Of a stretch of DNA of 64,000 nucleotides, positions 19,590-36,607 are shown one piece after another. The stretch spans positions 62,001 through 126,000 of the forward strand of contig JASBTM010000003.1 of NCBI GenBank assembly GCA_030148425.1, given 5' to 3'. Position numbers and translations under genes: made by a program. The notes beneath the pieces were generated by a model, which saw only the letters and a list, made by a program, of their open reading frames with translations, was not told the DNA's origin and did not search any database. The stretch comes from Hyphomicrobium sp. (GTDB lineage Bacteria; Pseudomonadota; Alphaproteobacteria; Rhizobiales; Hyphomicrobiaceae). The stretch's first letter is position 1, and every line of letters starts with the position of its first letter.

Positions 19590-20744
19590 ATGACGCCCAC
19601 TCGGAAGACACTTGTAGCATCGACCGCGCTTCTTTTGATGGGCAGCTTCGCTGCTTGGGCCGAGCCCTTGACCTCGGTGGGGCCGGGAGAAGGCGAAGTC
19701 GATATCGTGGCCTGGCCCGGATACATCGAGCGGGGCGAATCCGATAAAAATTATGACTGGGTGACGAGCTTCGAGAAAGAGACGAGCTGCAAGGTCAACG
19801 TCAAGACGGCGGCGACGTCCGACGAAATGGTGACCCTGATGAACCAGGGCGGCTTCGATCTCGTGACCGCGTCTGGCGACGCTTCCCTCCGCCTCGTCGC
19901 CGGCAAGAAAGTTCAGCCGATCAACGTCGCTCTCATTCCAAGCTGGAAGACGATCGACCCTCGCCTTCAGGACGCGCCATGGCACACAGTGGACGGCGTG
20001 CATTACGGCGTTCCCTATCAGTGGGGTCCGAACGTTCTCGCGTACAACACGTCGATTTTCAAAGATGCGCCGAAAAGCTGGTCGGTCGTATTCGAAGAGC
20101 AGACGCTTTCCGACGGCAAGAGCAACAAAGGCCGCGTGCAGGCTTATGATGGTCCGATCTATATTGCGGACGCCGCGCTCTACCTCAGCAAGAAGAAGCC
20201 TGAGCTTGGCATCAAAAATCCTTATGAGCTGAATAAAGAGCAGTACGATGCGGTGATCGCTCTTCTGCAGTCGCAGCGTGCTTTGATCGGCCGCTACTGG
20301 CACGACGCCACGGTGCAGGTCGATGACTTCAAGAACGAAGGCGTCGTTGCGTCCTCGTCGTGGCCTTATCAGGTGAACCTGCTCCAAGCAGACAAGAAGC
20401 CGATCGCTTCCACCATTCCGGAAGAAGGTGCGACGGGCTGGGCTGATACCACTATGCTGCACGTAAACGCCAAGCATCCGAACTGCGCCTATAAGTGGAT
20501 GGAGCACTCGCTCAATCCGAAGCTACAGGGCGATCTCGCGTCGTGGTTCGGCTCGGTGCCGACGGTTCCGGCCGCGTGCAAGGGCAATGCGCTGCTGACC
20601 GATACGGGCTGCGCGACGAACGGCTACGAAAACTTCGAGAAGATCTGGTTCTGGCGCACGCCGACGGCCAAGTGCGAAAAGGAAAGCTCTTGCGTTCCCT
20701 ATTCGCAGTGGGCGAAAGACTACATCGCAATTCTCGGCAAGTAA
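19590..20744 (+). CDS. ydcS: Polyamine-type ABC transporter substrate-binding protein (YdcS-like)
   Basis: Signal peptide; GEVDIVAWPGYIERG; first gene of a ydcSTUVW-like order. Confidence 0.82.
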   Translation: MTPTRKTLVASTALLLMGSFAAWAEPLTSVGPGEGEVDIVAWPGYIERGESDKNYDWVTSFEKETSCKVNVKTAATSDEMVTLMNQGGFDLVTASGDASLRLVAGKKVQPINVALIPSWKTIDPRLQDAPWHTVDGVHYGVPYQWGPNVLAYNTSIFKDAPKSWSVVFEEQTLSDGKSNKGRVQAYDGPIYIADAALYLSKKKPELGIKNPYELNKEQYDAVIALLQSQRALIGRYWHDATVQVDDFKNEGVVASSSWPYQVNLLQADKKPIASTIPEEGATGWADTTMLHVNAKHPNCAYKWMEHSLNPKLQGDLASWFGSVPTVPAACKGNALLTDTGCATNGYENFEKIWFWRTPTAKCEKESSCVPYSQWAKDYIAILGK

Positions 20745-20757
20745 TCGTTACATCTTC

Positions 20758-20785
20758 TGCGGTCGGCCATTTGCGGCCGGCCGCA
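20758..20785 (+). terminator. Intercistronic stem-loop between the ydcS-like and ydcT-like genes
   Basis: TGCGGTCGGCC-ATTTGC-GGCCGGCCGCA, 11-bp stem with one G-U pair, no U-tract; attenuator or 3'-stabiliser. Confidence 0.55.
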
Positions 20786-20802
20786 ACCACTAGAAGAGTT
20801 TC

Positions 20803-21813
20803 ATGTCTCCAGCAGTCCGCTTTCAGAACGTATCACGCCACTTCGGCTCCGTTCGCGCCGTAGATGGCGTTTCCCTCGATATCGAGCCGGGAGAGTTTTT
20901 CGCGCTCCTTGGTCCTTCCGGCTCCGGCAAGACGACGTGCCTGCGCCTGATCGCAGGCTTTGAGCAGCCAGACGAAGGCCACATCGAGATTTTCGGCGAA
21001 ACCGTCGAAGGCGTTCCGCCTTATCGGCGAAACGTCAATACTGTCTTCCAGGACTACGCGCTCTTTCCGCATATGACGGTCGGCGAGAACGTTGCGTATG
21101 GACTGATGATCAAGGGCGTTGAAAAGTCCGTGCGCGAGGCGAAAGCCAAGGATGCGCTCGCGATGGTGAAGCTCGGCGGATACGAAGGCCGCCGTACGGC
21201 GCAACTTTCCGGCGGTCAGCGCCAACGCGTCGCGCTTGCTCGCGCGCTCGTCAATGGCCCCAAGGTTTTGCTGCTCGACGAGCCGCTCGGCGCGCTCGAT
21301 CTCAAGCTGCGCGAGCAAATGCAGGAAGAATTGAAATCGCTACAGACCAGCCTCGGCATCACGTTCGTCTTCGTGACGCACGATCAGGGCGAGGCGCTGT
21401 CGATGGCAAATCGCGTGGCGATCTTCAGCGACGGAAAGATCGTTCAGGTCGGGACGCCGACCGATGTCTACGAGCGTCCGGCATCGCGGTTCGTCGCGGA
21501 TTTCGTCGGCTCATCGAACGTGTTGCCGCCGGAGTTCGCGGCATCTCATAGCGGCACGCCGTCGTGGACCAGCCTTCGGCCCGAGCGGATCGAGGTTGTT
21601 TCCGACGGCGCAGCCATACCGTCCGGCTATGCTTCGGTTAAAGGCCTCATCAGCGTCATTAGTTATCAAGGCGCAGTGACGCGCATCACGGTGGTGACGG
21701 AGAAATTGCCGCTCATCGCGTCGATCCCGGCGACGACATCGCTGCGGAAAGGCGATCACGTCACGCTCGCTTGGCCGAAGGCCGCGATGGTCGCCATGGG
21801 AGAAAGCGCGTGA
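20803..21813 (+). CDS. ydcT: Polyamine-type ABC transporter ATP-binding protein (PotA/YdcT-like)
   Basis: GPSGSGKTTCLRLIAGFEQPDEG, LSGGQRQRVALARAL, C-terminal TOBE region. Confidence 0.88.
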   Translation: MSPAVRFQNVSRHFGSVRAVDGVSLDIEPGEFFALLGPSGSGKTTCLRLIAGFEQPDEGHIEIFGETVEGVPPYRRNVNTVFQDYALFPHMTVGENVAYGLMIKGVEKSVREAKAKDALAMVKLGGYEGRRTAQLSGGQRQRVALARALVNGPKVLLLDEPLGALDLKLREQMQEELKSLQTSLGITFVFVTHDQGEALSMANRVAIFSDGKIVQVGTPTDVYERPASRFVADFVGSSNVLPPEFAASHSGTPSWTSLRPERIEVVSDGAAIPSGYASVKGLISVISYQGAVTRITVVTEKLPLIASIPATTSLRKGDHVTLAWPKAAMVAMGESA

Positions 21814-22748
21814 CGGCGATGGCGGCTGAAAAACCGCGAGGCATCGCGGGCACGATATCGGATGTTTTCTTTACGCGGCCGCAGCTATTGACCTTGCTAC
21901 TGCTGCTGCCGCCGCTTCTCTGGATCGGCGTCGTCTACGTCGGATCTCTGTTCGCGCTGCTGCTGCAAAGCTTCTATTCGCTCGACGATTTTTCGGGCGT
22001 CGTCGTCCATGAATTCACGCTCGCGACCTATTCGCAGCTGTTCGAGGGCTCGAACGTCCAGATCATTCTTCGCACTGTGACAATGGCCGCGCTTGTGACC
22101 GTCGCGAGTGCGATCATTGCGTTTCCGATTGCCTACTATGCGGCGCGTTATGCGCGCGGCTGGATGAAAGCGCTTTTCTATCTCGCCGTGATGATGCCGC
22201 TGTGGTCGAGCTATCTCGTCAAGGTCTATGCCTGGAAGCTGATCCTCGCGAAGGAAGGCGTCATTACTTGGTTTGCGAACGCGCTGCATCTGGGATGGCT
22301 ACTCGACGGCATTCTGGCGTTGCCGATCATCGGCGGACCGTCGCTTTCGTTCAGTTATCTCGGAACGTTTCTCGTCTTCGTCTACATCTGGTTGCCGTAC
22401 ATGATCCTTCCGACCCAGGCGGCGCTGGAACGCGTTCCGACTAACTTCATTGAGGCTTCGGCCGATCTTGGCGCGGATCCGGGGCAGACGTTCCGCACGG
22501 TGATTTTTCCGTTGGCGCTGCCGGGCATTGTCGCAGGCTCGATCTTCACGTTTTCGCTGACGCTCGGCGATTACATCATTCCGCAGATCGTCGGGAATTC
22601 GCGCCTGATGATCGGGCAGGCCGTGTATACGCTGCAGGGCACCGCCGGCAATATTCCGTTGGCTGCCGCCTTCACCGTCGTGCCGATGGTGATCATGGGC
22701 TTCTATCTCTGGATGGCGAAACGCATGGGGGCCTTCGATGTCCTCTAA
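21810..22748 (+). CDS. ydcU: Polyamine-type ABC transporter permease (YdcU-like)
   Basis: GTG start overlapping the ydcT stop (GTGA); BPD permease motif [26 protein letters not shown]. Confidence 0.86.
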
Positions 22749-23556
22749 GGGCAAGACGGTTTCTCCGCTCGGTCTGAGGATCTCGGCGATCGGGGGGCTT
22801 TTATTCCTGCATCTGCCGCTCTTCTTCATTTTCCTTTACGCGTTCACGACTGAGGAAAAGAGCTTCGAGTTTCCGCCGCCGGGCCTCACGACGAAATGGT
22901 TCGGTGTGGCGTGGAACTCGCGGCCCGATATCTGGCCACCGCTTTATCTGTCGCTGCAAGTTGCGGCGATCGCGACGATCCTGGCGCTGATCTTCGGAAC
23001 GCTTGCGGCGGCTGCGCTGTCGCGGACGAAGTTCTTCGGGCGCGAGTCGATCTCGTTGCTATTCGTGCTGCCGATTGCGCTGCCGGGTATCATCACGGGC
23101 ATCGCGCTGCGGTCGGCGTTCGATATCATGAGCATTCCGTTCTCGGTCTGGACGATCATTCTCGGGCACGCGACGTTCTGCATCGTCGTCGTTTACAACA
23201 ATGCGGTTGCGCGGTTCCGACGGCTTTCCGGCAATCTTGTCGAAGCGTCGATGGATCTCGGCGCTGACGGCTTCCAGACGTTCCGCCACGTGATCCTGCC
23301 GCAAATCGGGACGGCTCTGCTGGCGGGCGGCATGCTGGCATTCGCGCTGTCGTTCGACGAAGTGATCGTCACGACCTTCACCGCCGGACAGCAGACGACG
23401 CTGCCGATCTGGATGCTATCCGAGTTGATCCGGCCACGGCAGCGGCCTGTGACGAACGTCGTCGCCGTTTTCGTATTTCTCGTGACGCTACTGCCCATTC
23501 TCGCGGCCTACTACCTGACGCGGGAAGGAGAACATACCGGCGGTTCCTCAAAGTAA
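22738..23556 (+). CDS. ydcV: Polyamine-type ABC transporter permease (YdcV-like)
   Basis: BPD permease motif [26 protein letters not shown]; overlaps ydcU-like gene. Confidence 0.86.
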
Positions 23557-23586
23557 CGGGGCGCCGGAAGATCATTGGAGGAAGCC

Positions 23587-25014
23587 ATGCTTGAAACCAA
23601 CATGCTGATCGGTTCCGACTTCGTTGCGGGAACGGATGCGCCTGAGCCGATCGTCAATCCGAAAACGGAAGAGGTCATTACCAATCTTCCCGATGCGTCG
23701 GTCGCGCAGGTCGATGCCGCCGTCACGGCCGCCGAGAAGGCGTTCAAGACTTGGTCGCAGACGACGCCCGGTGAGCGCTCGGCGCTGCTGTTGAAGCTCG
23801 CTGATGCGATTGAAAAAGACGGCGAAGCATTCGCAGCGCTTGAGGCGCTCAACACCGGCAAGCCGCGCATTCGCGTGCTTCAGGATGAAATACCCGGCGT
23901 TGTCGATTGCTTCCGTTATTTCGCTGCTGCCGTGCGCAACATGCATGGTCCTGTTGCAGGAGAATATCTTGCGGGCCACACGTCGATGATCCGCCGCGAT
24001 CCGGTCGGAGTCGTTGGTTCGATTGCGCCCTGGAATTATCCGCTGATGATGGCCGCATGGAAGCTCGGGCCTGCGCTTGCAGGCGGCAACACCATCGTGC
24101 TCAAGCCATCCGAACAAACTCCGCTGACGCTTCTGAAGCTTGGCAAGATTATCGCCGATATCTTCCCTGAAGGTGTCGTCAACATCGTCGTCGGCAAAGG
24201 CGCGACGACGGGCTCCGCGCTGATCAATCACCCGAAAGTTTCGATGGTCTCGCTGACGGGCAGCATCGGTACGGGCCAGAAGGTTTTGCAGGCAGCAGTC
24301 TCGACGATCAAGCGCACGCACCTCGAGCTTGGCGGCAAAGCACCGGTTATCGTTTTCGACGATGCGGATATTGCCTCCGTCGTCGAAGGCGTGAAAGTTT
24401 TCGGTTACTACAACGCTGGGCAGGACTGCACGGCCGCATGCCGCATCTACGCAGGCAAGAAGATCTATGACAATCTCGTCGCCGATCTCGCGAGCGCTGT
24501 CAGCAGTCTCAAATTCAACCAGGCGAATGACGACGAAAACGATCTCGGCCCGCTCATCTCGTCAGCGCAAAAGGGCCGCGTGCAGGGCTTCGTCGAGCGC
24601 GCGTCTCAGCTCAACCACATCAACGTAGCGGCGGGCGGCAAGGCTCCGACAGGCAAGGGCTTCTTCTTCGAGCCGACGGTTCTTGCTGGTGCGACGCAAG
24701 AAGACGAGATCGTGCGCAAGGAAGTGTTCGGTCCGGTTGTTTCCGTTACGCCGTTCGATGACGCCGATGAGGCGATTGCCTGGGCGAACGACAGCGACTA
24801 CGGCCTCGCGTCGTCGGTGTGGACGTCGGACATCGGCAGGGGCATGAAGGTCGCGTCGCGCCTGCAGTACGGCTGTACGTGGGTCAACACGCATTTCATG
24901 CTCGTCAGCGAGATGCCGCACGGCGGCTTCAAAATGTCGGGCTACGGCAAAGATCTCTCGATGTATGCGCTCGAGGATTATACCGTGCCGCGTCACGTAA
25001 TGGTGAAGCTCTAA
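23587..25014 (+). CDS. patD: Gamma-aminobutyraldehyde dehydrogenase (PatD/YdcW-like)
   Basis: [48 protein letters not shown], close to recalled E. coli YdcW/PatD. Confidence 0.88.
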
Positions 25015-25175: not shown

Positions 25176-26240
25176 ATGACCGTCACGGCCGAACTCACGC
25201 ACGATGAGCTATTAGAACGCCTGCAAGCTCTGGCCGAGCGTGCAATCAAGCGTTTCGGCCTTCCCGGCGACGCTTCCGTCAAGCTCATCAATGTTTCCGA
25301 GAACGCTACGTATCGGGTCGACAACGGCTCGGGGCAGAAATGGGCGCTTCGCGTGCACCGCGAAGGATATCACTCGCGAACCGCAATCGCCTCTGAACTC
25401 GCGTGGCTTTCGGCTCTGCGCGAGGATGGAGTCGCGACCCCAACGGCTGTGCGGGGTCTCGACGGCGAATACATCCAGACCGTCGCCGGAGAGGGTTTGC
25501 CCAATCCCCGAAATGTCGTTCTGTTCGAGTGGGAGAACGGCGCCGAGCCTGAGCGTACCGACGTTGCGGGCTTCGAGCTTCTCGGCGAAACGGCGGCGCG
25601 GATGCACGCGCATGTTCGCAAATGGCGGCGGCCGCCGTGGTTCGAGAGGCATTCCTGGAATTTCGAAACGAGTCTCGGCGATCGTCCTCACTGGGGCTAT
25701 TGGAAAAACGGGATGGGGATGACCGCAGAAGCTATGGAGGCTTTTTCGGAAACCGTCGCGCTGATCAAGAATCGTCTCGAAGCATTCGGCAAATCACCCG
25801 ATCGTTTCAACCTCGTGCACGGCGACATGCGCCTCGCAAACCTGCTGATGGATGGCAGCAAAGTGAAGGTGATCGATTTCGACGACTGCGGCTTTTCCTG
25901 GCTGCTTTACGATTGCGCGACAACCGTCTCTTTCTTCGAGCATACGCCTGAGGTTCCGGAACTTCTCAACGCGTGGGTCCGGGGATATCGACGCATCGGA
26001 ACGCTTAGCCCGGAGGAGGAAAGCGAGATCGCGACCTTCGTGATGTTGCGCCGCCTGCTTCTCGTGGCGTGGATTGGATCGCACTCGGAGACCGAGCTCG
26101 CCCAGTCGATGGGTATTTCCTATACACAGGAATCGATACCGCTCTGCGAAACCTATCTCTCACTTTACGGTGGGGCGGGCAGGGTGACGGCTTCTCCTGC
26201 GGAGCCGAAAAAAGGCATCCTAAGCCGCCTCTTCGGCTGA
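25176..26240 (+). CDS. APH/homoserine-kinase-II-like small-molecule kinase; candidate amino-alcohol kinase
   Basis: APH motif LVHGDMRLANLLMDGSKVKVIDFDDCGFSWLLYDCA. Confidence 0.82.
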   Translation: MTVTAELTHDELLERLQALAERAIKRFGLPGDASVKLINVSENATYRVDNGSGQKWALRVHREGYHSRTAIASELAWLSALREDGVATPTAVRGLDGEYIQTVAGEGLPNPRNVVLFEWENGAEPERTDVAGFELLGETAARMHAHVRKWRRPPWFERHSWNFETSLGDRPHWGYWKNGMGMTAEAMEAFSETVALIKNRLEAFGKSPDRFNLVHGDMRLANLLMDGSKVKVIDFDDCGFSWLLYDCATTVSFFEHTPEVPELLNAWVRGYRRIGTLSPEEESEIATFVMLRRLLLVAWIGSHSETELAQSMGISYTQESIPLCETYLSLYGGAGRVTASPAEPKKGILSRLFG

Positions 26241-26369
26241 TTGCTGCAGTGCAATTGTGCAATTTCAGTATTTGAATGCCGAATAATTCAGCGTGCACAA
26301 GAGTTGACCCATCGAGCGCTTCTGATAGCCTTTTTCTTCTGAATATTGGCACTCGCTCATCAGGAAACG

Positions 26370-27449
26370 ATGGGAGTCGGCAGCATCGAAACCGTGGCGG
26401 CAAGCGCCGGTCGGGTGGTTGGCAAAGAAGCCGATCCGTCGGTTCTTGCGTCCGCCGCGACGGGTATCGTTAAATTCATCGAGCGCCAGCGCGGTGATGT
26501 CGACCGGATTTTTGGCAACGCGGGCATCTCACCGGAAATGGCGGGCTCGCCCACGCTTCAGCTGAGTCTCACCTCCTATTGCCGGTTGTTCGAGGAAAGC
26601 GCGCGCATCACGCGCAACGATAACTTTGGTCTCTGGTTTGGCCATGCTTTCGATCCGCGCGACCTCGGCCTATGGGGTTACGCCGCGCTCTCAGCACCGA
26701 CGCTGGGCGTGGCGCTTGAGACCCTCGTCGATCTCTTTCCATTGCATCAACAGTCGTCGACGATGGCGCTCAAGCTGGCGCCCGATGGGCTGATGCGGCT
26801 GGAATATCGGGTCGACGCGCCGCAAATCGTCGAGCGACGCCAGGATGCGGAGCTATCTCTAGGCATGTTCCTGAATCTCATCCGGGAGGCGATGGGGCAG
26901 AGCTGGGCGCCGGAAGAAGTTCACTTCGAACATCCGAAGCCTGCGCAGTGGCGTGACCATGAACGCGCCTTCGCCGCTCCGGCTTTTTTTGCACAGCCGA
27001 CGAACGCGATCGTCTTCCGTCCGCAGGTATTGAAGCATGTCATGCCGGCGGCCGATCCGCGCCTGATGTCGGCAATGAAGCTTTGTCTTGCACGGTTGTC
27101 TGAGCGTCAGGATGTGCGCTTCAGCATAACCGATCAGGTGCGCAGCGCCGTCAGGGCGCGCCTGCCCGAAGGCTTTCCTGCGATCGAAGGCATTGCTTCG
27201 GAACTCCGGCTTCCTCTCAGCACCCTGCAACGGGAGCTGCATTACGACGGCCTGAACTACAGCACGCTGGTTGAGAATACCCGACGCGACTTGGCGTTAT
27301 CGTATGTTCGCCAGCGCCAGCTTTCGTTTTCCGAGATCGCGTTTCTCGTCGGTTATTCCGAGCTTTCAGCCTTCAGCCGCGCGGTGCGGCGCTGGACGGG
27401 GCTTTCGCCGCGCGCGCTCCGCGCCGAGGTTCTTCGCAACCACGGCTGA
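26370..27449 (+). CDS. AraC-family regulator with N-terminal arabinose_bd-like domain
   Basis: C-terminal AraC HTH (LSFSEIAFLVGYSELSAFSRAVRRWTGLSPRALRAE). Confidence 0.9.
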   Translation: MGVGSIETVAASAGRVVGKEADPSVLASAATGIVKFIERQRGDVDRIFGNAGISPEMAGSPTLQLSLTSYCRLFEESARITRNDNFGLWFGHAFDPRDLGLWGYAALSAPTLGVALETLVDLFPLHQQSSTMALKLAPDGLMRLEYRVDAPQIVERRQDAELSLGMFLNLIREAMGQSWAPEEVHFEHPKPAQWRDHERAFAAPAFFAQPTNAIVFRPQVLKHVMPAADPRLMSAMKLCLARLSERQDVRFSITDQVRSAVRARLPEGFPAIEGIASELRLPLSTLQRELHYDGLNYSTLVENTRRDLALSYVRQRQLSFSEIAFLVGYSELSAFSRAVRRWTGLSPRALRAEVLRNHG

Positions 27450-27473: not shown

Positions 27474-28253
27474 TCAAGCTTGAGCTAGAGCGTCCATGCT
27501 TTCTGGCAGGATCTGACCGCCGTCGACGATGATCGTCTGGCCGGTGATATATGCCGCTTCCTTCGATGCGAGAAACAGCGCCGCGTAGCCGATGTCTTCA
27601 ACCGTTCCGAGCTTGTTGAGCGGGATCGAAGCCGCCATTGACTTCTCGTATTCGGGCCCGAGAGCGGCTAGTCCCTCAGTCGCGATGTTGCCGGGAAGGA
27701 CTGCATTGACCGTGATGCCATACTTGGCAAACTCGATGCAGGCCGTGCGCATGAAGCCGAGCTGACCAGCCTTCGTTGCGCCGTAGTGCGCCCAACCTGG
27801 AAAGCCCGTGACCGGCCCCGTGATCGAGGATGTGAGGACGATGCGGCCCTCGCCCGATTTCTTGAGATAGGGGAGGCATGCCTTGATCGGTAGAAATGTG
27901 CCCTTGAGGTTCGTCGTCGTGACGAAATCCCAGTCTTCCGGCGACAGATCTTCGATTTTGGTCTGAGGGAAGATACCGGCGTTGGCGCAAAGGATGTCGA
28001 CGCCGCCGTGGGCGCTCGCCGCGGCCTCGGCGAGGAGCTGCATGTCGCCCATGCTGGTGATGTCAGCGGCAAAACCTTTTGCGGTGCCGCCTGCTTTGCG
28101 GAATTCCTCGGCCGTCGCTTCTGCTTCGTCGAGATGGCGTGAGACGACGAAGACCTTGCCGCCGTTCTTGGCGAAGACGCGCGCAATGCCTTTTCCGATA
28201 CCTTTGCTTGCACCGGTGACGATGACGGACTTGCCTGCGATGGACGTGAGCAT
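27474..28253 (-). CDS. SDR-family oxidoreductase (FabG-like)
   Basis: VTGASKGIGKGIARVF, CANAGIFPQ, YGATKAGQLGFMRTACIE, GQTIIVDGG. Confidence 0.88.
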   Translation of the reverse strand: MLTSIAGKSVIVTGASKGIGKGIARVFAKNGGKVFVVSRHLDEAEATAEEFRKAGGTAKGFAADITSMGDMQLLAEAAASAHGGVDILCANAGIFPQTKIEDLSPEDWDFVTTTNLKGTFLPIKACLPYLKKSGEGRIVLTSSITGPVTGFPGWAHYGATKAGQLGFMRTACIEFAKYGITVNAVLPGNIATEGLAALGPEYEKSMAASIPLNKLGTVEDIGYAALFLASKEAAYITGQTIIVDGGQILPESMDALAQA

Positions 28254-28350: not shown

Positions 28351-29898
28351 TCAGTCGTTCAAGACCATGCGACCGATACGGGCGTGGGCCGCAGGCGCCA
28401 GGAACCGGAGCGCAAGGCCCCAGACCAGACCGACGCCCAAGATGACGAAGGCAATGAGCGGAATGCGGCTGCCGAAGCTGCCCGTGCCGCCGAACGTCTC
28501 CAGGTTCACAACCAGCAGGTAGACGAGATAGACCTGCGAGAAGAATGCGATGACCGGAGCGATAAGGCCAGCGAAGACGTTCACTTCACCCGGATGGTTA
28601 GCCCGGAAGTAGACGATGATCGCGATCGATACCACGGCCTGCAGAATAAGCAGCAGCATCGTTCCGAGAACGGCGAGCATCGTATAGACGCCGAGGTATG
28701 CTTGGGCATTGGGGTCGTTCGTTCCGGCAAAGTAGGCGAACAAAATGATCCACAAGGCAGCAAACAGTGTCTGGACTACAGATGCCACGTGGGGGCTCTT
28801 GTGCGTCGGATGCGTCTTACCGAGAACGCCTGGCAGCACACCTTCACGACCCAGGGAGTACATGTAGCGGGCGGCCGTGTTGTGAAAGGCCATGCTGCAG
28901 GCAAAGGAACTCGTCAGAATAAGAACGGCCATCGCCTCGGTTGCCCACTGGCCGACGAATTCTGTCAGAGGCGAAAGGAAGAAATTGCCCGAGTCGGCGA
29001 CGGCCTTGGCAAGCATGTCGCCTTCGGTCGGATAAGCCGAAATCGCGCACCAGCTGGTGATGATGTAGAAGATGCCGAGGCCGATGACGGAGTAGTAGAG
29101 CGAGCGCGGGATGACGTACTTCGGATCGACCGATTCTTCGGCGTAGTTCGGCGCCATTTCGAAGCCGACCCACGACCAGAAGGCCATGAAGACGCCGACA
29201 GCCGCTGCGCCTGCCGCAATATCGGTCGTACCGACTTTCTGCGCGGCGACCGGTGTCATGACGTGAAGGACATTCAGCGCTTCGAGATTGAAGGCGCCAG
29301 GGCCTTTAGCGAGAAAAATGCCGACGTCGAAGATCGTCAACATGATCACTTCGAACACCAGAGCGGCGCCCAAGACCTTCACCGACAGCTGCACGTCCTG
29401 ATAGGAGAGGAACGAGCTGAGAGCGACCACGAAGAGGGCGAGATAGACCCACGGAACGTTGATTCCGAAGTGCGATTGAAGCCAAGAGTTGCCAAAAAAC
29501 GCGAACAGGCCGGTGAGGGAGGCTTCGAACACGCTGTAGGATGCGAGCGAAGCAAAGCCCGCGGCCATGCCGACATCACGTCCCAGCCCCAAGCTGATGA
29601 ACGAATAAAAACCGCCGACGGACGAGACCTTGCTCGCCATGGCTGCGTATCCGACGGAAAAGATGGTCAACACAATCGTGGCGAGAAGGAAGGCGGCGGG
29701 AACATAGAGGCCATTGCCGAAACCGGCGGCAAACGGCACGTTGCCGAGCATGGCGGACTCAGGCGCTGCGCCGGTGACCGTCAAGAACAACACGCCGATC
29801 AGGCCGATCGCTTTAGAGTGGAGCTTATCGACTGAGGCGTCCTTACTTACGTCGAAGCTTTCTTGGGCTTCGAGAGCACTTGCGTTAGGTGATGTCAC
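28351..29898 (-). CDS. APC-superfamily amino acid/amine permease
   Basis: About 12 TM segments; LTVTGAAPESAMLGNVPFAAGFGNG, GFEMAPNYAEESVDPKY. Confidence 0.88.
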   Translation of the reverse strand: MTSPNASALEAQESFDVSKDASVDKLHSKAIGLIGVLFLTVTGAAPESAMLGNVPFAAGFGNGLYVPAAFLLATIVLTIFSVGYAAMASKVSSVGGFYSFISLGLGRDVGMAAGFASLASYSVFEASLTGLFAFFGNSWLQSHFGINVPWVYLALFVVALSSFLSYQDVQLSVKVLGAALVFEVIMLTIFDVGIFLAKGPGAFNLEALNVLHVMTPVAAQKVGTTDIAAGAAAVGVFMAFWSWVGFEMAPNYAEESVDPKYVIPRSLYYSVIGLGIFYIITSWCAISAYPTEGDMLAKAVADSGNFFLSPLTEFVGQWATEAMAVLILTSSFACSMAFHNTAARYMYSLGREGVLPGVLGKTHPTHKSPHVASVVQTLFAALWIILFAYFAGTNDPNAQAYLGVYTMLAVLGTMLLLILQAVVSIAIIVYFRANHPGEVNVFAGLIAPVIAFFSQVYLVYLLVVNLETFGGTGSFGSRIPLIAFVILGVGLVWGLALRFLAPAAHARIGRMVLND

Positions 29899-30102: not shown

Positions 30103-30798
30103 TTAGTCCAGACCCATGATCTTCTTGAGCTCTGTGCTCGACATGACGTGACAGTAGATCATGTTCATGATCTCGAGCTCCTTATGGTGAAGCTCGTCCG
30201 AACCGGCGGCGCAACAGTCTTCCACAACGACGACTGAAAAGCTTTCGTCAGCCAGACTCCGGACCGTCGAAGCGACGCATTGGTCGGTAAAGATTCCGCA
30301 GCAAACCACCGTTTTGATGCCAAGATTAGTGAGGATCAGCCGCAAATTCGTGCCCGTCAGAGCACTGTCGGTTGTCTTCGTGACGACGATTTCATCGCCG
30401 ACCGGCGCGAGTTCTGGGACGATCTGCGACGGCAGTTCGTCCTTCGGCAGCAGCAGGTTGTTCCAGCCCGGCATCTTCTGCGATAGCGACCGGTCTCGCC
30501 CGTCCTTGGTGTGGCAGGCGATACGGGCGAAGAGGCATTCGATGCCGTTATCGCGGAATGTGGCGAGCAAGTCTTTGGTACGCGGCAGGACGGTCTGATG
30601 CATACGGTCGTGGAATGGTGTCCAGGCGTCGTACCGGCGCTGATCTTCGGGCGAGAGCGAGGTCCGTTCCGGACGCTCGAGGTAGGTGTTCTGGACATCG
30701 ATGATCAGGAGGGCGGTGTGGGCTTTGGCAAGGTCGGGATCGGCTGGTTCCGGAGCGCCGTCGTAGTAGATGGATCGGTAGTCTGTCTTCCAGCTCAT
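30103..30798 (-). CDS. Isochorismatase-fold cysteine hydrolase
   Basis: TALLIIDVQNTYL, GIKTVVCCGIFTDQCVASTVRSLADESF. Confidence 0.87.
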   Translation of the reverse strand: MSWKTDYRSIYYDGAPEPADPDLAKAHTALLIIDVQNTYLERPERTSLSPEDQRRYDAWTPFHDRMHQTVLPRTKDLLATFRDNGIECLFARIACHTKDGRDRSLSQKMPGWNNLLLPKDELPSQIVPELAPVGDEIVVTKTTDSALTGTNLRLILTNLGIKTVVCCGIFTDQCVASTVRSLADESFSVVVVEDCCAAGSDELHHKELEIMNMIYCHVMSSTELKKIMGLD

Positions 30799-30808
30799 GC
30801 AGGACCTT

Positions 30809-31237
30809 TCAATAACGCTTTTTGTAGAGGGAGCGGCGTTCGTAGACGTCGGCGGCTTCCTCGATGAAGGCAGCGACGCCTTCCGCCCCATAGACATCGC
30901 GAAGCTCTTTCGCCGCGGCAAGAAGTTCGTCCTTGGAGCCCGCGCGTCCGGGGCGCAGCAGCTCGTAGGTTCTCATGATGACGTCTTGCGGCACGTCGAC
31001 CAATTCGGCGCCGCGCTCGAAGTTGGCGGCCAGCGTCGGCCGTCCCGCCGCTTTGGAGATTTCCGCCTGCTGGCGGAGCGCCCGGCCCGTGATGCGCAGA
31101 TCTTCGAGCGTCACCCGGTCGGAGAGAACGGCGTCGAGGCCGATATCGTCGAGCGTTTTGCCGGCTTTCGTCTCGACGATCTCGGGACGCTTTTCGGCAA
31201 GCGGGTAGTCCGCAACAGTAAGGGTTTTGTCGCTCAT
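30809..31237 (-). CDS. B12-dependent diol/glycerol dehydratase small subunit (PduE-like), no N-terminal encapsulation extension
   Basis: ADYPLAEKRPEIVETKAGKTLDDIGLDAVLS...MRTYELLRPGR...YERRSLYKK aligns by eye to PduE. Confidence 0.9.
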   Translation of the reverse strand: MSDKTLTVADYPLAEKRPEIVETKAGKTLDDIGLDAVLSDRVTLEDLRITGRALRQQAEISKAAGRPTLAANFERGAELVDVPQDVIMRTYELLRPGRAGSKDELLAAAKELRDVYGAEGVAAFIEEAADVYERRSLYKKRY

Positions 31238-33516
31238 GCCGCGGCTCCGAGGAATTTGATGTCGATCTCTTCCGGCTCCGCGCCTTCGGACGTCATCTCG
31301 GTTTCGATCGCGTAGATCATCGAAACGCGGGCGTGGTAGCGCGACCCCATCGCTTCGCCGCGCGTCGGCACGATGACGGGCTCCGGCATCTCGCCGAGGG
31401 CGTAGGCAGCGGCATTGAGGCCCATGCGTTTGTAATGCTCGAGCTTCGTGATGGGCGAGTTCGAGAAGAGTTCGAGATTGTTATGCGGTAGCCGGTCTTT
31501 CTGGTGGATGACCGCGGTGCCTTTGGCCTGGATGCCAATGCCGACTCCGGATCCAGCAAGACGCGCGGCGCTCAGGCCCAAGAACGACGTATCTGCCGTG
31601 TGGCGCATGCGGACGACGCGCGCGGTACATCCGCCCTCAGCGATACCGGCGATCAGCACCCGCAAAATGGCTGAAAGCGGATGCCCGGCGACGGTCTGGA
31701 ATAGCTTCACCCCGAAAGCCGGGCTTATGCCGATGACGACCTCGCGCGGGTTGGCGGTGACGGCTGCAGGTCCGACCGGACGATAAGCGATGCGGGTGAC
31801 CTCCGCCGGGCGGAATTGAGCTTCGCCGCGCAGCACCTCCTGACGCGTCAGCACATCGCGGATGGCGACAATCTCTTCCCGGCGGCCTTCGCTGACGCGG
31901 TAGCCGGTTCCCGGTCCTTGATAATCATTTGGATCGTTGACGGCGCTGACGATCTTACCGTCCCGGATCATTGCAGATGTCTGCAGGTAATCGCCCGAAA
32001 CGCGAAGGCGGACGAGTTTTAGCAGGTTATCTGCCTCTTCTCGGAAGCCACGCGCGGCGAGCGCCTTGATGACGTCGATCACGGTGATCGAGCGGGCGAA
32101 GATGCTTTCGCTGATCATCGCGACGTCACGGCCGGAAAACGTGCGCGTTTCGTCGGAGCCTGAGGCCGCGATAACGCTTTGTTTCATGTCTGCGGTCGGC
32201 TTTGCCAGTCCAAGCTCTTCGAGCACGGCGCTGATAGCGTCGACGGCGCGGGCTCTCAGCTCCATGATGCGGGCTTCGCCGATCGGGGTCAGGCCGCCGT
32301 CGGCTTCGAAATCGCGCTGAAGGACAAGGTAATCCTCAAGCTCTTCGCCATTGAGCAACGAAGGGTTGAAGGAGTTGTCGTACTTCAGGATCGAGCCGAA
32401 GCCGGAGCAGATGAGATCCGAACCTGCGATGAGATAGGGCAGAATTTTCGCGCCGACACGGATTTCGGATTCCGTGGCACGTGCGTCGTTGCCGGAAGCA
32501 CATTCAAGGTCGAGCCAGACCGCAATCAAATTTTCTGCCATCAGTTCGCGCATGCCGCCCGGCACCGTGCAGGTGACGGGGGCGCCATCGACGCCGCCGT
32601 TCTGCGTGCCCTGAACGCCCATGGCGCGCTGCAGACAGAGACAACGGGCTTCAAGATAAAGAAGGGATTTGCTTTCGTGAAATCCCATCAGCAACTCGGA
32701 TCCGGCACCGGATGTGCAGCGCATCTTGATGCCACGAGACGCGTAGGCTGCCGCGAGAAACGCTTTCGACCAGGGTGTATCGTCGCCGTCGATGAAGCTT
32801 TTCTCGGTGCCGTAGACCGAAAGGGTTTCGGCATACGAGGTGAAGCCTGCCATGCCGATCTTCAGCTCTTCGGCTTCCTCGCTGGAGCACTGGAACAGCG
32901 TGCCCCAGCGGCCGACGGACGCCCCGACGGCGCACGCGACGGCGTTCGACCACGAATTGCGCGCGACGCGCATTGTCGTTTCGATTTCGTCGAAGCCGAA
33001 CGCCACGGCGGTTGCGGCGTCGGCCGCCATCTGCAGCGGATCGTCCTTCGCGTTCGTTACGTGCGCCTGATTGCCTGGCGTTTGACGCGCCCGCATTTTG
33101 CCGTAGGCAAAGGCGATTTCGAGAGACGACAGGTGCGCGACGACCTCGGCGAGCTTGGCGGGAGTCATACCGTGCGCTAAGCGAACAAGGGTGCTGCGCG
33201 GCACGTTCATATCGACCAACATCCGCGCGACCTCGATCGAGGGCATGGCCATCGCTTCAGGCGCGATCTCGGGATCGAGATGGTACTTGGATATAAAGAT
33301 GTCGATCATATCGAAGTCGCGGACGGCGATGCCATCCATCGACTCGACGACGCCGCTGCCCATCGCGAGCCCCGGCTTTGGATCATAGGGGCTGTTAAAG
33401 GCAGCGAAGCCGCTCGCCGCGTCCTCGGCGGCGAACTTGTCGAGGCGAAGCGGCCTCTCGTCCCAGTCGGAAAACCGCTTCCAGCGATTGGCGCGTATGT
33501 GCGATTCTTCCGTCAT
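31234..33516 (-). CDS. B12-dependent diol/glycerol dehydratase, fused large + medium subunits (PduC-PduD-like)
   Basis: PduC-like: RQTPGNQAHVTNAKDDPLQMAADA, YAETLSVYGTEKSFIDGDDTPWSKAFLAAAYASRGIKMRCTSGAGSE; PduD-like C-terminus: REVVIGISPAF, GSGVGIGIQAKGTAVIHQKDRLPHNNLELF. Confidence 0.93.
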   Translation of the reverse strand: MTEESHIRANRWKRFSDWDERPLRLDKFAAEDAASGFAAFNSPYDPKPGLAMGSGVVESMDGIAVRDFDMIDIFISKYHLDPEIAPEAMAMPSIEVARMLVDMNVPRSTLVRLAHGMTPAKLAEVVAHLSSLEIAFAYGKMRARQTPGNQAHVTNAKDDPLQMAADAATAVAFGFDEIETTMRVARNSWSNAVACAVGASVGRWGTLFQCSSEEAEELKIGMAGFTSYAETLSVYGTEKSFIDGDDTPWSKAFLAAAYASRGIKMRCTSGAGSELLMGFHESKSLLYLEARCLCLQRAMGVQGTQNGGVDGAPVTCTVPGGMRELMAENLIAVWLDLECASGNDARATESEIRVGAKILPYLIAGSDLICSGFGSILKYDNSFNPSLLNGEELEDYLVLQRDFEADGGLTPIGEARIMELRARAVDAISAVLEELGLAKPTADMKQSVIAASGSDETRTFSGRDVAMISESIFARSITVIDVIKALAARGFREEADNLLKLVRLRVSGDYLQTSAMIRDGKIVSAVNDPNDYQGPGTGYRVSEGRREEIVAIRDVLTRQEVLRGEAQFRPAEVTRIAYRPVGPAAVTANPREVVIGISPAFGVKLFQTVAGHPLSAILRVLIAGIAEGGCTARVVRMRHTADTSFLGLSAARLAGSGVGIGIQAKGTAVIHQKDRLPHNNLELFSNSPITKLEHYKRMGLNAAAYALGEMPEPVIVPTRGEAMGSRYHARVSMIYAIETEMTSEGAEPEEIDIKFLGAAA

Positions 33517-33761
33517 GGCATGTGTTCTCGGTAAAGGAGTGCCCGATTCAATCGGGGTCCACGATAACCCGGCCGCGACGCCCGCGTTTGACCTCAGCCC
33601 CCTCGAAGTTGACGGGTTTCGCTCGCAGTCCGCGCGAGACTGGCGTTGGAACTGAACAGACATGCCGAACGCCGGTCAAGCTGGAAGACGCCGGACAGCC
33701 TATAGTGGCGCGAAAATCGTGCAGAGCCGCACGCATCGTTAGGGAGCCGGTTTGAGGCAGC

Positions 33762-35099
33762 ATGGAAGCAACGAAGAAAATCCTCGAGCTCAACGCCTTC
33801 GACATGAACACGGCGGAAGGACTGTCGGCGGAGGTGACGAGCCTCGTCAAACGCCGGAAAGAAACCTTCGGTCCGGCGTCGATGCTGTTCTACGAGCGGC
33901 CGCTCAATCTCGTTCGCGGCGAAGGCGTCTGGCTTCACGACGCGGACGGGACCCGGTATCTCGACGCCTATAACAATGTGCCGTCGGTTGGGCATTGCCA
34001 TCCGCGTGTCGTTGAGGCCGTTTCCCACCAGTTCGGGGCGCTTAACACGCACACGCGCTATCTCTATTCGAATATCTACACCTACGCCGAGCGGCTGCTC
34101 GGCACGATGCCGGGCGCTGTCTCGAACATCGTCTTCACCTGCACGGGAAGCGAGAGCGCCGATTTTGCCCTTCGCGTCGCCCGCGCGGTGACAGGGGGAA
34201 CGGGTTTCATCGTTACCGACAACGCCTATCACGGCAACACGTCGGCAGTGACGGAGATTTCGCCTTCCTCCGCCAGCGCGGAGCCTCGGCCACCTTATGT
34301 GCGTGTGGTTGCTGCGCCGGATACCTATCGCGAAAAGATCGAGAAGGTCGGACCTCGCTTGGCGAACGATGTCCGTGCGGCGATTGCAAAGATGGCGGCG
34401 GACGGCATTCGTTTCGCGGGGTTCATTGCCGACAGTATCTTCTCCAGCGATGGGGTGTTTCCGGGCGAGCCGGGGTTCCTGCAGGAAACCTTGGAAGCCG
34501 TTCACGAGGCGGGAGGGCTCTATATCGCGGACGAGGTGCAGCCGGGCTTCGGCCGGACTGGCGAGAAGATGTGGGGTTTCGACCGTCATGGTCTCGTGCC
34601 CGATATGGTGGTGATGGGTAAGCCGATGGGGAATGGCTTCCCTATGGGCGGCGTCGCTATCAAGCCGGATCTTCTCAAAGCATTCGGCGCGAAGTCAGGC
34701 TATTTCAACACATTCGGCGGCAACCCCGTCGCGGCCGCGGCAGGTCTTGCGGTGCTGGACGTTCTGGAAGGCGAAGGGCTGCAACAGAACAGCCTCGAGA
34801 CGGGCGCCTATCTGCGGACCGAAATTCGTATCGCCGGAGCCGACGGCGGGTGCGTGGGCGACGTACGCGGTTCGGGGCTTTATATCGGCGTCGACATCGT
34901 CAAGGATCGCCAGTCGCGCGAGCCGGATCGGGGCATGGCCGAGACTATTGTGAACGGGATGCGCGACCGGAACATTCTTATCGGGATCGCTGGCGGGCAT
35001 GGGAATGTCTTGAAGATCCGTCCGCCGCTCTGCTTTACTCGCGAGCATGCCGATATTTTCATTGAGGGATTGAAAGGCGCGTTGGCCGACGCATCGTAA
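33762..35099 (+). CDS. Class-III PLP enzyme of the ethanolamine-phosphate/amino-alcohol-phosphate phospho-lyase type
   Basis: DAYNNVPSVGHCHPRVVEAV, NTHTRYLYSNIYTYAERLLG, FIADEVQPGFGRTG; closest in feel to ETNPPL/AGXT2L-type proteins. Confidence 0.82.
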   Translation: MEATKKILELNAFDMNTAEGLSAEVTSLVKRRKETFGPASMLFYERPLNLVRGEGVWLHDADGTRYLDAYNNVPSVGHCHPRVVEAVSHQFGALNTHTRYLYSNIYTYAERLLGTMPGAVSNIVFTCTGSESADFALRVARAVTGGTGFIVTDNAYHGNTSAVTEISPSSASAEPRPPYVRVVAAPDTYREKIEKVGPRLANDVRAAIAKMAADGIRFAGFIADSIFSSDGVFPGEPGFLQETLEAVHEAGGLYIADEVQPGFGRTGEKMWGFDRHGLVPDMVVMGKPMGNGFPMGGVAIKPDLLKAFGAKSGYFNTFGGNPVAAAAGLAVLDVLEGEGLQQNSLETGAYLRTEIRIAGADGGCVGDVRGSGLYIGVDIVKDRQSREPDRGMAETIVNGMRDRNILIGIAGGHGNVLKIRPPLCFTREHADIFIEGLKGALADAS

Positions 35100-36607
35100 T
35101 GGCCAGCTCAGCGTTTCATTCAGCAGGAGCCTCTATGCAATCGAAGCTTTTCATCGACGGAGCGTGGACGGATGCCCGCGATGGTGGAACGCTCGACGTC
35201 ATCAATCCGGCCAACGAGCAGGTGTTTCACAAATGCGCCGCCGGAACCGCTGCGGACATCGATGCTGCGGTCGCCGCCGCCAAAGCGGCTATGGCAGGAC
35301 CTTGGGCGCGGACCACTGGCAAGGATCGAGCCGGATATCTGCGCGCCATCGCCGCGAAAATCGAAGAGCAGAAGCAGGCGCTCGCTGAGATTGAGGTCCG
35401 CGACAACGGCAAGCCGCTGCCGGAGGCGCTGTGGGACGTTGGCGACGCGGCTTACTGCTTCAATCTTTATGCGACCTACGCCGAGGAGCTTGACGGCAGA
35501 CAAGGGGAGATTGTCGGTGTTCCAGATGACCGCTTTCAGTCGCGTGTGAAGTACATGCCGGCGGGAGTCGCGGGTCTCATCGTGCCGTGGAATTATCCGC
35601 TGCTGATGGCGGCGTGGAAGGTGGCGCCAGCTATTGCTGCCGGTTGCGCGATCGTATTAAAGCCGTCGGAATATACGCCGCTGACGGCGCTCGAACTCGC
35701 GCGGATCGCGGCCGAAGCCGGTCTCCCGAACGGTGTCCTGAATGTCGTGACGGGTTACGGCGCGACGGCGGGCGCGTGTCTCTCGGCGCATCCGGATGTT
35801 CGGAAACTTGCCTTTACCGGCTCTGTGCCGACCGGAATTGCCGTTGCGTCCGCGGCGGCGCGCGATGTCAAGAGTGTGAGCCTTGAGCTTGGCGGCAAGT
35901 CGCCGATCGTCGTTTTTGACGATGCCGACATCGAGCAGACCGTCGAATGGGTGATGTTCGGCATTTTCTGGAACCAGGGTCAGGTCTGCAGCGCGACCTC
36001 GCGGATGATTGTCGAGAAGGGCATCGCGCCGAAGTTGATCGACCGGCTGTCGGAAGAGGCTAAGAAAATCACTATCGGCGACGGCATGGCGGCGGGGACG
36101 TTGCTCGGACCGCTCGTGAGCAGGGCGCAGTATCAGAAGGTGCTGAGCTATATCGACATCGGTAGAAGCGAGGCGACGCTGGTGACAGGCGGTGCGCGGC
36201 CATCGCATCTCAACGAAGGGTACTTTCTGGAGCCGACGATATTCGCCGATGTTTCGCCAAGCGCGCGGATCTGGAAAGAAGAAATCTTCGGGCCGGTTCT
36301 CGCCGTTTCGACTTTTGAAACTGAAGATGAAGCCGTGAAGCTTGCCAACGACAGTGAGTTCGGTCTGGCGGCCGCAGTCATGTCTGGGGATCACAAGCGC
36401 GCGGAGCGCGTGGCCGATGCGTTCGAGGCCGGTGTCGTCTGGATCAACTGCTCGCAGCCAAACTTTCTCGAGCCGCCTTGGGGCGGCGTCAAGAAAAGTG
36501 GCGTTGGCCGCGAGCTCGGGACGTGGGGACTCAACAACTTTCTTGAGCCCAAGCAGATCACCAAATATCTGAGCCGCGACCCGTGGGGCTGGTACCTGAA
36601 GGGGTGA
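35099..36607 (+). CDS. NAD-dependent aldehyde dehydrogenase, betaine-aldehyde/aminoaldehyde (plant AMADH-like) type
   Basis: LELGGKSPIVVFDDADIEQ, NQGQVCSATSRM, C-terminal QITKYLSRDPWGWYLKG; TAATG overlap with the phospho-lyase gene. Confidence 0.87.
   Translation: MASSAFHSAGASMQSKLFIDGAWTDARDGGTLDVINPANEQVFHKCAAGTAADIDAAVAAAKAAMAGPWARTTGKDRAGYLRAIAAKIEEQKQALAEIEVRDNGKPLPEALWDVGDAAYCFNLYATYAEELDGRQGEIVGVPDDRFQSRVKYMPAGVAGLIVPWNYPLLMAAWKVAPAIAAGCAIVLKPSEYTPLTALELARIAAEAGLPNGVLNVVTGYGATAGACLSAHPDVRKLAFTGSVPTGIAVASAAARDVKSVSLELGGKSPIVVFDDADIEQTVEWVMFGIFWNQGQVCSATSRMIVEKGIAPKLIDRLSEEAKKITIGDGMAAGTLLGPLVSRAQYQKVLSYIDIGRSEATLVTGGARPSHLNEGYFLEPTIFADVSPSARIWKEEIFGPVLAVSTFETEDEAVKLANDSEFGLAAAVMSGDHKRAERVADAFEAGVVWINCSQPNFLEPPWGGVKKSGVGRELGTWGLNNFLEPKQITKYLSRDPWGWYLKG

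Follow-up and report, generated by a model that had tools for sequence, protein, structure and literature searches.

A single-chain diol dehydratase of Hyphomicrobium with an altered substrate pocket and amino-alcohol-type gene neighbours

The window, a stretch of 64,000 nucleotides of a Hyphomicrobium sp. contig, encodes a B12-dependent diol dehydratase whose large (alpha) and medium (beta) subunits form a single chain. With moderate confidence, this protein is read as a 1,2-diol dehydratase that acts on another substrate than the textbook enzymes, dispenses with a reactivase and belongs to an amino-alcohol cluster. The rebuilt pocket, the absence of the known reactivase and the amino-alcohol neighbours were less expected than the fusion itself.

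The fused gene and its relatives

The dehydratase features of the window are as follows.

31234–33516, minus strand: fused alpha-beta B12-dependent diol dehydratase, 760 aa (reading frame, Pfam, NCBIfam, relatives)
31846–33486, minus strand: alpha part, PduC/DhaB1-like, Dehydratase_LU, residues 11–557 (Pfam)
31252–31815, minus strand: beta part, PduD/DhaB2-like, Dehydratase_MU, residues 568–755 (Pfam, NCBIfam, alignment, AlphaFold2 model)
30809–31237, minus strand: gamma (small) subunit, PduE/DhaB3-like, a separate gene with a 4-nt ATGA overlap with the stop of the fused gene (Pfam, sequence)

An earlier note, made from the sequence alone, had described one frame running from PduC-like into PduD-like sequence without a stop codon, where canonical enzymes have separate alpha and beta chains; both statements were correct, as were its coordinates, and the two peptides it quoted were found. 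The changed pocket, the missing reactivase and the amino-alcohol neighbours had escaped that note. The gene starts with the ATG at 33516, ends with the final stop base at 31234 and contains no internal stop. The open reading frame listing offers an upstream ATG at 33663 (809 aa) as an alternative start, and sequence conservation begins at about residue 10 of the 760-aa frame. Pfam placed Dehydratase_LU (residues 11–557, E 4e-212) and Dehydratase_MU (598–711, 5e-28) on the one chain, and with the small subunit (6e-49) all three subunit domains were present. NCBIfam assigned the large subunit to residues 10–561 and the medium subunit to 568–755, the medium match lying under its curated cut-off. 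The beta part aligned without the N-terminal extension of Salmonella PduD, which is a shell-targeting peptide. AlphaFold2 models from 42 fused sequences (mean pLDDT 63.6) were reliable in the beta half alone, which matched the glycerol dehydratase beta chain 1mmf_B with a TM score of 0.92; pLDDT at the active site was mostly below 50, and the model was therefore left out of the reading of pocket geometry.

The fusion is common to about 85 relatives of the window protein. All 80 genome loci recovered were fused, with 66–96% identity and alignment across both domains or to the contig end, and in 51 of 81 loci the fused gene likewise ended on an ATGA. A stop or frameshift at the junction, and with it a sequencing error, is excluded by this recurrence. 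Because the 80-locus scan used the query peptides as probes, a Pfam survey blind to fusion was added. Among 399 Pseudomonadota genomes, the large subunit was found in six: the five alphaproteobacterial ones, the window's included, had one open frame of 769–829 codons across the domain, and the sole match from outside the class had a 557-codon frame. Fusion is the rule in the alphaproteobacterial branch and no artefact.

The alpha-beta fusion itself is already known and hence not new, since a review reports natural and engineered fusions (PMC7674605) and alpha-beta structures exist. Fused glycerol dehydratases, in which the alpha chain carries a beta-like extension, were reported for Mesorhizobium loti and Mycobacterium smegmatis (Liu et al. 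2010, cited by PMC7674605), in agreement with the earlier note's mention of fused actinobacterial homologues. Like the window enzyme, they combine alpha and beta in one chain and leave gamma separate, and seven Mesorhizobium sequences (L027–L032, L034) fell in the same clade as the window protein. No actinobacterial fused sequence came from the genome-contig scan, which yielded alphaproteobacterial-type loci only, or from the plasmid, phage and viral collections. In its accessible text, the review is silent on pocket residues, reactivase absence and gene context of the natural fused enzymes. Engineered Klebsiella glycerol dehydratases with alpha-beta fusions (linker and stop-codon variants) have the same topology, but are man-made and keep the canonical Ser/Gln pocket; the solved structures named as alpha-beta chains, the 9vi2 series, are probably of this kind. 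The Klebsiella enzymes PduCDE and DhaB123 (1dio, 1iwp, 3auj) share with the window the large, medium and small subunit parts, the alpha-beta-gamma composition and seven metal- and substrate-binding residues. They differ in having separate alpha and beta genes, Ser301 and Gln336, and reactivase genes alongside, at about 47% identity.

Active site, substrate pocket and reactivation

Residues are numbered as in the K. oxytoca diol dehydratase. Gln141, His143, Glu170, Glu221, Gln296, Asp335 and Ser362, the catalytic and metal residues, were invariant in the 81 aligned fused rows, and the window protein keeps all seven. For this reason a canonical radical mechanism is expected, and the fused enzyme very probably follows it: the adenosylcobalamin-dependent alpha-beta chain would act with the separate gamma chain, the metal and the two substrate hydroxyls being held by Gln141, Glu170, Glu221, Gln296 and Ser362 together with His143 and Asp335.

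The residues around the C3 substituent were changed. Ser301 was replaced by Asp in 86 of 86 fused proteins and was Ser in all nine split enzymes; Gln336 was replaced by Ala (73), Thr (10) or Cys (3), and was Gln in 9/9 split enzymes. The Ser301 plus Gln336 signature of the glycerol and 1,2-propanediol enzymes (PduC/DhaB1) is thus absent from the window and from the whole fused set. The codons concerned were located by alignment.

32587–32589, minus strand: codon of Asp310 (equivalent to Ser301), C3-pocket residue
32482–32484, minus strand: codon of Ala345 (equivalent to Gln336), second C3-pocket residue

Further changes in the fused set were Met373 to Ser, Cys302 to Gly and, co-occurring with Asp301 in 83 of 86 proteins, Thr337 to Arg (Arg346 of the window protein). 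Any single pocket change is unsurprising, since the fused set has lost 51 of the 250 positions that do not vary among the split enzymes. An acidic residue at 301 points to a cationic or hydroxylated group at C3, unless the charge is neutralised by Arg337, which might form a salt bridge with Asp301. With an Asp at 301 and a small residue at 336 the C3 pocket has been rebuilt, and the diol used as substrate probably carries a polar, probably cationic, group at C3. A different substrate is suggested by the rebuilt pocket, the lack of a known repair partner and the amino-alcohol-degrading neighbour genes; it is probably neither glycerol nor plain 1,2-propanediol.

Ser301 and Gln336 (once printed as 335) touch the 3-OH of glycerol and govern mechanism-based inactivation (PMC7674605). 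Single Ala mutants at either position were inactivated more slowly by glycerol and were also less active, and the S301A/Q336A double mutant gained no glycerol resistance (kcat/kinact 0.006, wild type 0.009) (PMC7674605). A pocket change alone therefore need not explain the missing reactivase.

PF08841, the family of DdrA/PduG-type reactivases, had no match over the cut-off in the window genome (86% complete) or in any of 47 genomes with a fused gene; two split records searched alongside as positive controls matched at 1e-145 or better. A reactivase is annotated beside the dehydratase in all eight split loci with flanks and near the fused dehydratase in none of 49 well-flanked loci (at least 8 kb on either side of the fused gene). 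Pdu operons carry both the reactivase (DdrA/PduG, DdrB/PduH) and shell genes, whereas the window has neither. In the 86%-complete window genome no second, separate protein matched Dehydratase_MU, a family that should also catch DdrB, the fused protein itself being the only match. Cobalamin adenosyltransferases were present in this genome; no Rfam match to a cobalamin riboswitch was found in the window or in a Fodinicurvata-type locus (L069) described below.

The fused enzyme is probably independent of the known reactivase, and turnover would proceed without DdrA/DdrB. Reactivation is described as a swap of the beta subunit (PMC7674605), which a covalent beta domain should hinder. The covalent beta probably stabilises the assembled cobalamin pocket and, by the same token, would block reactivation by swapping. 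Engineered Klebsiella alpha-beta fusions were active, one with slower inactivation; how fusion affects reactivation is, according to the review, not known (PMC7674605). The same genome encodes a second adenosylcobalamin eliminase with a fused light chain, a single-chain EutB-EutC protein of 738 aa (L109:670–2886, minus strand; G000:C16 near 343249–344541) with the Pfam domains EutB at 32–462 and EutC at 483–721. An ordinary EutB lies elsewhere in that genome (L108), and the EutA reactivase had no match over the cut-off there.

Gene neighbourhood and candidate pathway

The genes around the dehydratase are listed in order along the window.

19590–23556, plus strand: YdcS-like (PotD-type) ABC transporter genes adjoining the cluster, membership probable only (locus comparison)
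23575–25014, plus strand: second aldehyde dehydrogenase, kept beside the kinase in Hyphomicrobium-type loci (locus comparison)
25176–26240, plus strand: APH-fold kinase, closest solved structure 6ef6 (E 8e-82)
26346–27449, plus strand: AraC-family regulator, above the NCBIfam cut-off for QhpR (Pfam, NCBIfam)
27474–28253, minus strand: short-chain dehydrogenase (SDR), closest solved structures 6ci8/6ci9 (E 4e-86)
28351–29898, minus strand: APC-family amino-acid/amine permease (Pfam, locus comparison)
30103–30798, minus strand: isochorismatase-like cysteine amidohydrolase (amidase) (Pfam, NCBIfam)
33762–35099, plus strand: member of the amino-alcohol-phosphate phospholyase family of class-III PLP enzymes, its gene divergent from that of the dehydratase (structure matches)
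35099–36607, plus strand: non-acylating aldehyde dehydrogenase, betaine/aminoaldehyde type (Pfam, NCBIfam)

We take 6ci8/6ci9 to be the 1-amino-2-propanol dehydrogenase, and 6ef6 the (S)-1-amino-2-propanol kinase, of the M. smegmatis RMM (Rhodococcus-Mycobacterium microcompartment). The class-III PLP enzyme matched the phospholyase 5g4i (6e-114) and the ethanolamine-phosphate phospho-lyase 6tor (1e-104), the next match standing at 3e-51. By homology only, the SDR, APH kinase and phospholyase-type class-III enzyme have counterparts in RMM/AAU (aminoacetone utilization) loci, and the R. jostii RHA1 RMM locus carries a kinase and an aminotransferase homologous to the window's kinase and class-III PLP enzyme, respectively. 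The window differs from these systems in its extra amidase and AraC regulator, in lacking a PF00936 shell, a family with no match in the window genome (86% complete), and in its hydrolytic aldehyde dehydrogenases, which NCBIfam assigned to the betaine-aldehyde type; the acylating enzyme of RMM/AAU is absent. Papers on the aminopropanol dehydrogenase and the kinase of M. smegmatis are among the references of PMC8007038.

All 49 well-flanked loci had the small subunit, and most had the SDR (36), the kinase (35, leaving 14 loci with none nearby) and the amidase (31). One of two types of class-III PLP enzyme, the phospholyase type or a c9 type nearest to putrescine aminotransferase, was present in 33 of the 49 and both together in none; the two are read as alternative solutions for one step. 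An ABC or APC amine-type transporter occurred in 39/49 loci, never both, a PotD-type ABC transporter filling in other loci the slot of the window's APC permease. Four loci (L018, L021, L025, L035) carried after the small subunit a class-I glutamine-amidotransferase/Peptidase_C26-like protein in the amidase slot, two (L036, L042) had both this and an isochorismatase-like protein, and a TPR-repeat protein of about 555 aa lay between small subunit and amidase in two more (L011:12688–14358, L026:12684–14345).

Microcompartment shell genes were found in 14 of the 49 well-flanked relatives. In two loci the shell genes are followed by the fused gene, and the same enzymes belong to this co-directional run, an arrangement that suggests a microcompartment operon with the dehydratase in it. 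These loci belong to Fodinicurvata fenggangensis and a relative (L069:2000–12707 and L071), where SDR, kinase, class-III PLP enzyme, acylating aldehyde dehydrogenase, shell proteins, amidase and fused dehydratase are read in a single direction. RMM2 loci also contain diol dehydratase genes, which earlier authors excluded from the pathway on account of their opposite-strand arrangement (PMC4207490); the Fodinicurvata-type arrangement is unlike that one. The present reading thus bears on whether the RMM2-type diol dehydratase belongs to an amino-alcohol pathway.

The enzyme is read as serving a cluster for amino-alcohol catabolism that is related to the RMM/aminoacetone-utilization system but has no shell, and a candidate substrate would be an amino-1,2-diol, such as 3-amino-1,2-propanediol, converted to 3-aminopropanal. 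A literature search for 3-amino-1,2-propanediol together with bacteria and degradation returned nothing. Conversion of an amino-diol to aminoacetone, which would form a linear path together with the SDR and kinase, was rejected: it needs the opposite regiochemistry, and nothing spoke for it. In A. fabrum C58 the amine module stands without the dehydratase, which might therefore feed into it by a separate route. More tentatively, we propose a widespread, unrecognised amino-diol dehydratase in which Asp301 would bind the C3 ammonium, the covalent beta domain and altered pocket would permit reactivase-free working, and the product would feed an amino-alcohol catabolic module that some alphaproteobacteria enclose in a microcompartment.

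If the reading of a different substrate and reactivase-free turnover is true, glycerol and propanediol annotations are wrong in substrate across many Alphaproteobacteria, and the subfamily provides a naturally reactivase-free dehydratase. In practice, the Klebsiella glycerol dehydratase is known to be limited by its suicide inactivation and its dependence on DdrAB.

Alternative readings and origin

It is possible, though unlikely, that the protein is an ordinary 1,2-propanediol (or glycerol) dehydratase in a bifunctional cluster, its propanal joining that made from 1-amino-2-propanol by the SDR-kinase-phospholyase route. Such a role would fit the conservation of every catalytic residue, the proposal that RMM2 loci are possibly bifunctional (PMC4207490) and the growth on propylene glycol of Paracoccus yeei TT13, a reported RMM2 carrier (PMC8156839). 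However, the authors of the TT13 genome infer a route from propylene glycol to pyruvate without a pdu operon (PMC5773746), an Asp stands next to the expected methyl position in 86 of 86 fused proteins, and locus comparison revealed neither a reactivase nor any neighbour specific to glycerol or propanediol.

We consider quite unlikely a dehydratase of polyols or longer-chain diols, in which small side chains at 336 and 373 would leave space for a bigger uncharged substrate and Asp301 would hydrogen-bond to its additional hydroxyls. The loss of Gln336 and Met373 to small residues and Ser, respectively, does enlarge the pocket, and positions 301 and 336 have been engineered to admit longer 1,2-diols (Yamanishi 2012, by its title as cited in PMC7674605). 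The Agrobacterium/Shinella branch has sugar-type ABC transporters, yet the APH kinase and the class-III PLP enzyme are retained there too, and in most loci the transporter is an amine transporter of the PotD type or the APC family.

In a tree of the alpha parts of 86 fused proteins, all alphaproteobacterial, and nine split enzymes, fused and split sequences lay on opposite sides of one long branch (SH-aLRT 100); the refuting outcome named in the earlier note, a tree without separation from three-gene enzymes, did not occur. The window protein nested in a Hyphomicrobium clade inside the fused group, and the GC content of the gene (0.618) is close to that of the window (0.605). Lateral transfer, which the earlier note had entertained, is therefore unsupported as a recent event and was rejected in that form. 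Although fused enzymes are reported from M. smegmatis (PMC7674605) and RMM is named for actinobacteria (PMC4207490), recent acquisition of an actinobacterial fused dehydratase without special function is highly improbable given this placement, the native base composition and an identical gene order in many alphaproteobacterial genera. One contig labelled Halieaceae (L054) is probably mis-binned, as it and a Paracoccaceae contig (L056) have identical alpha parts.
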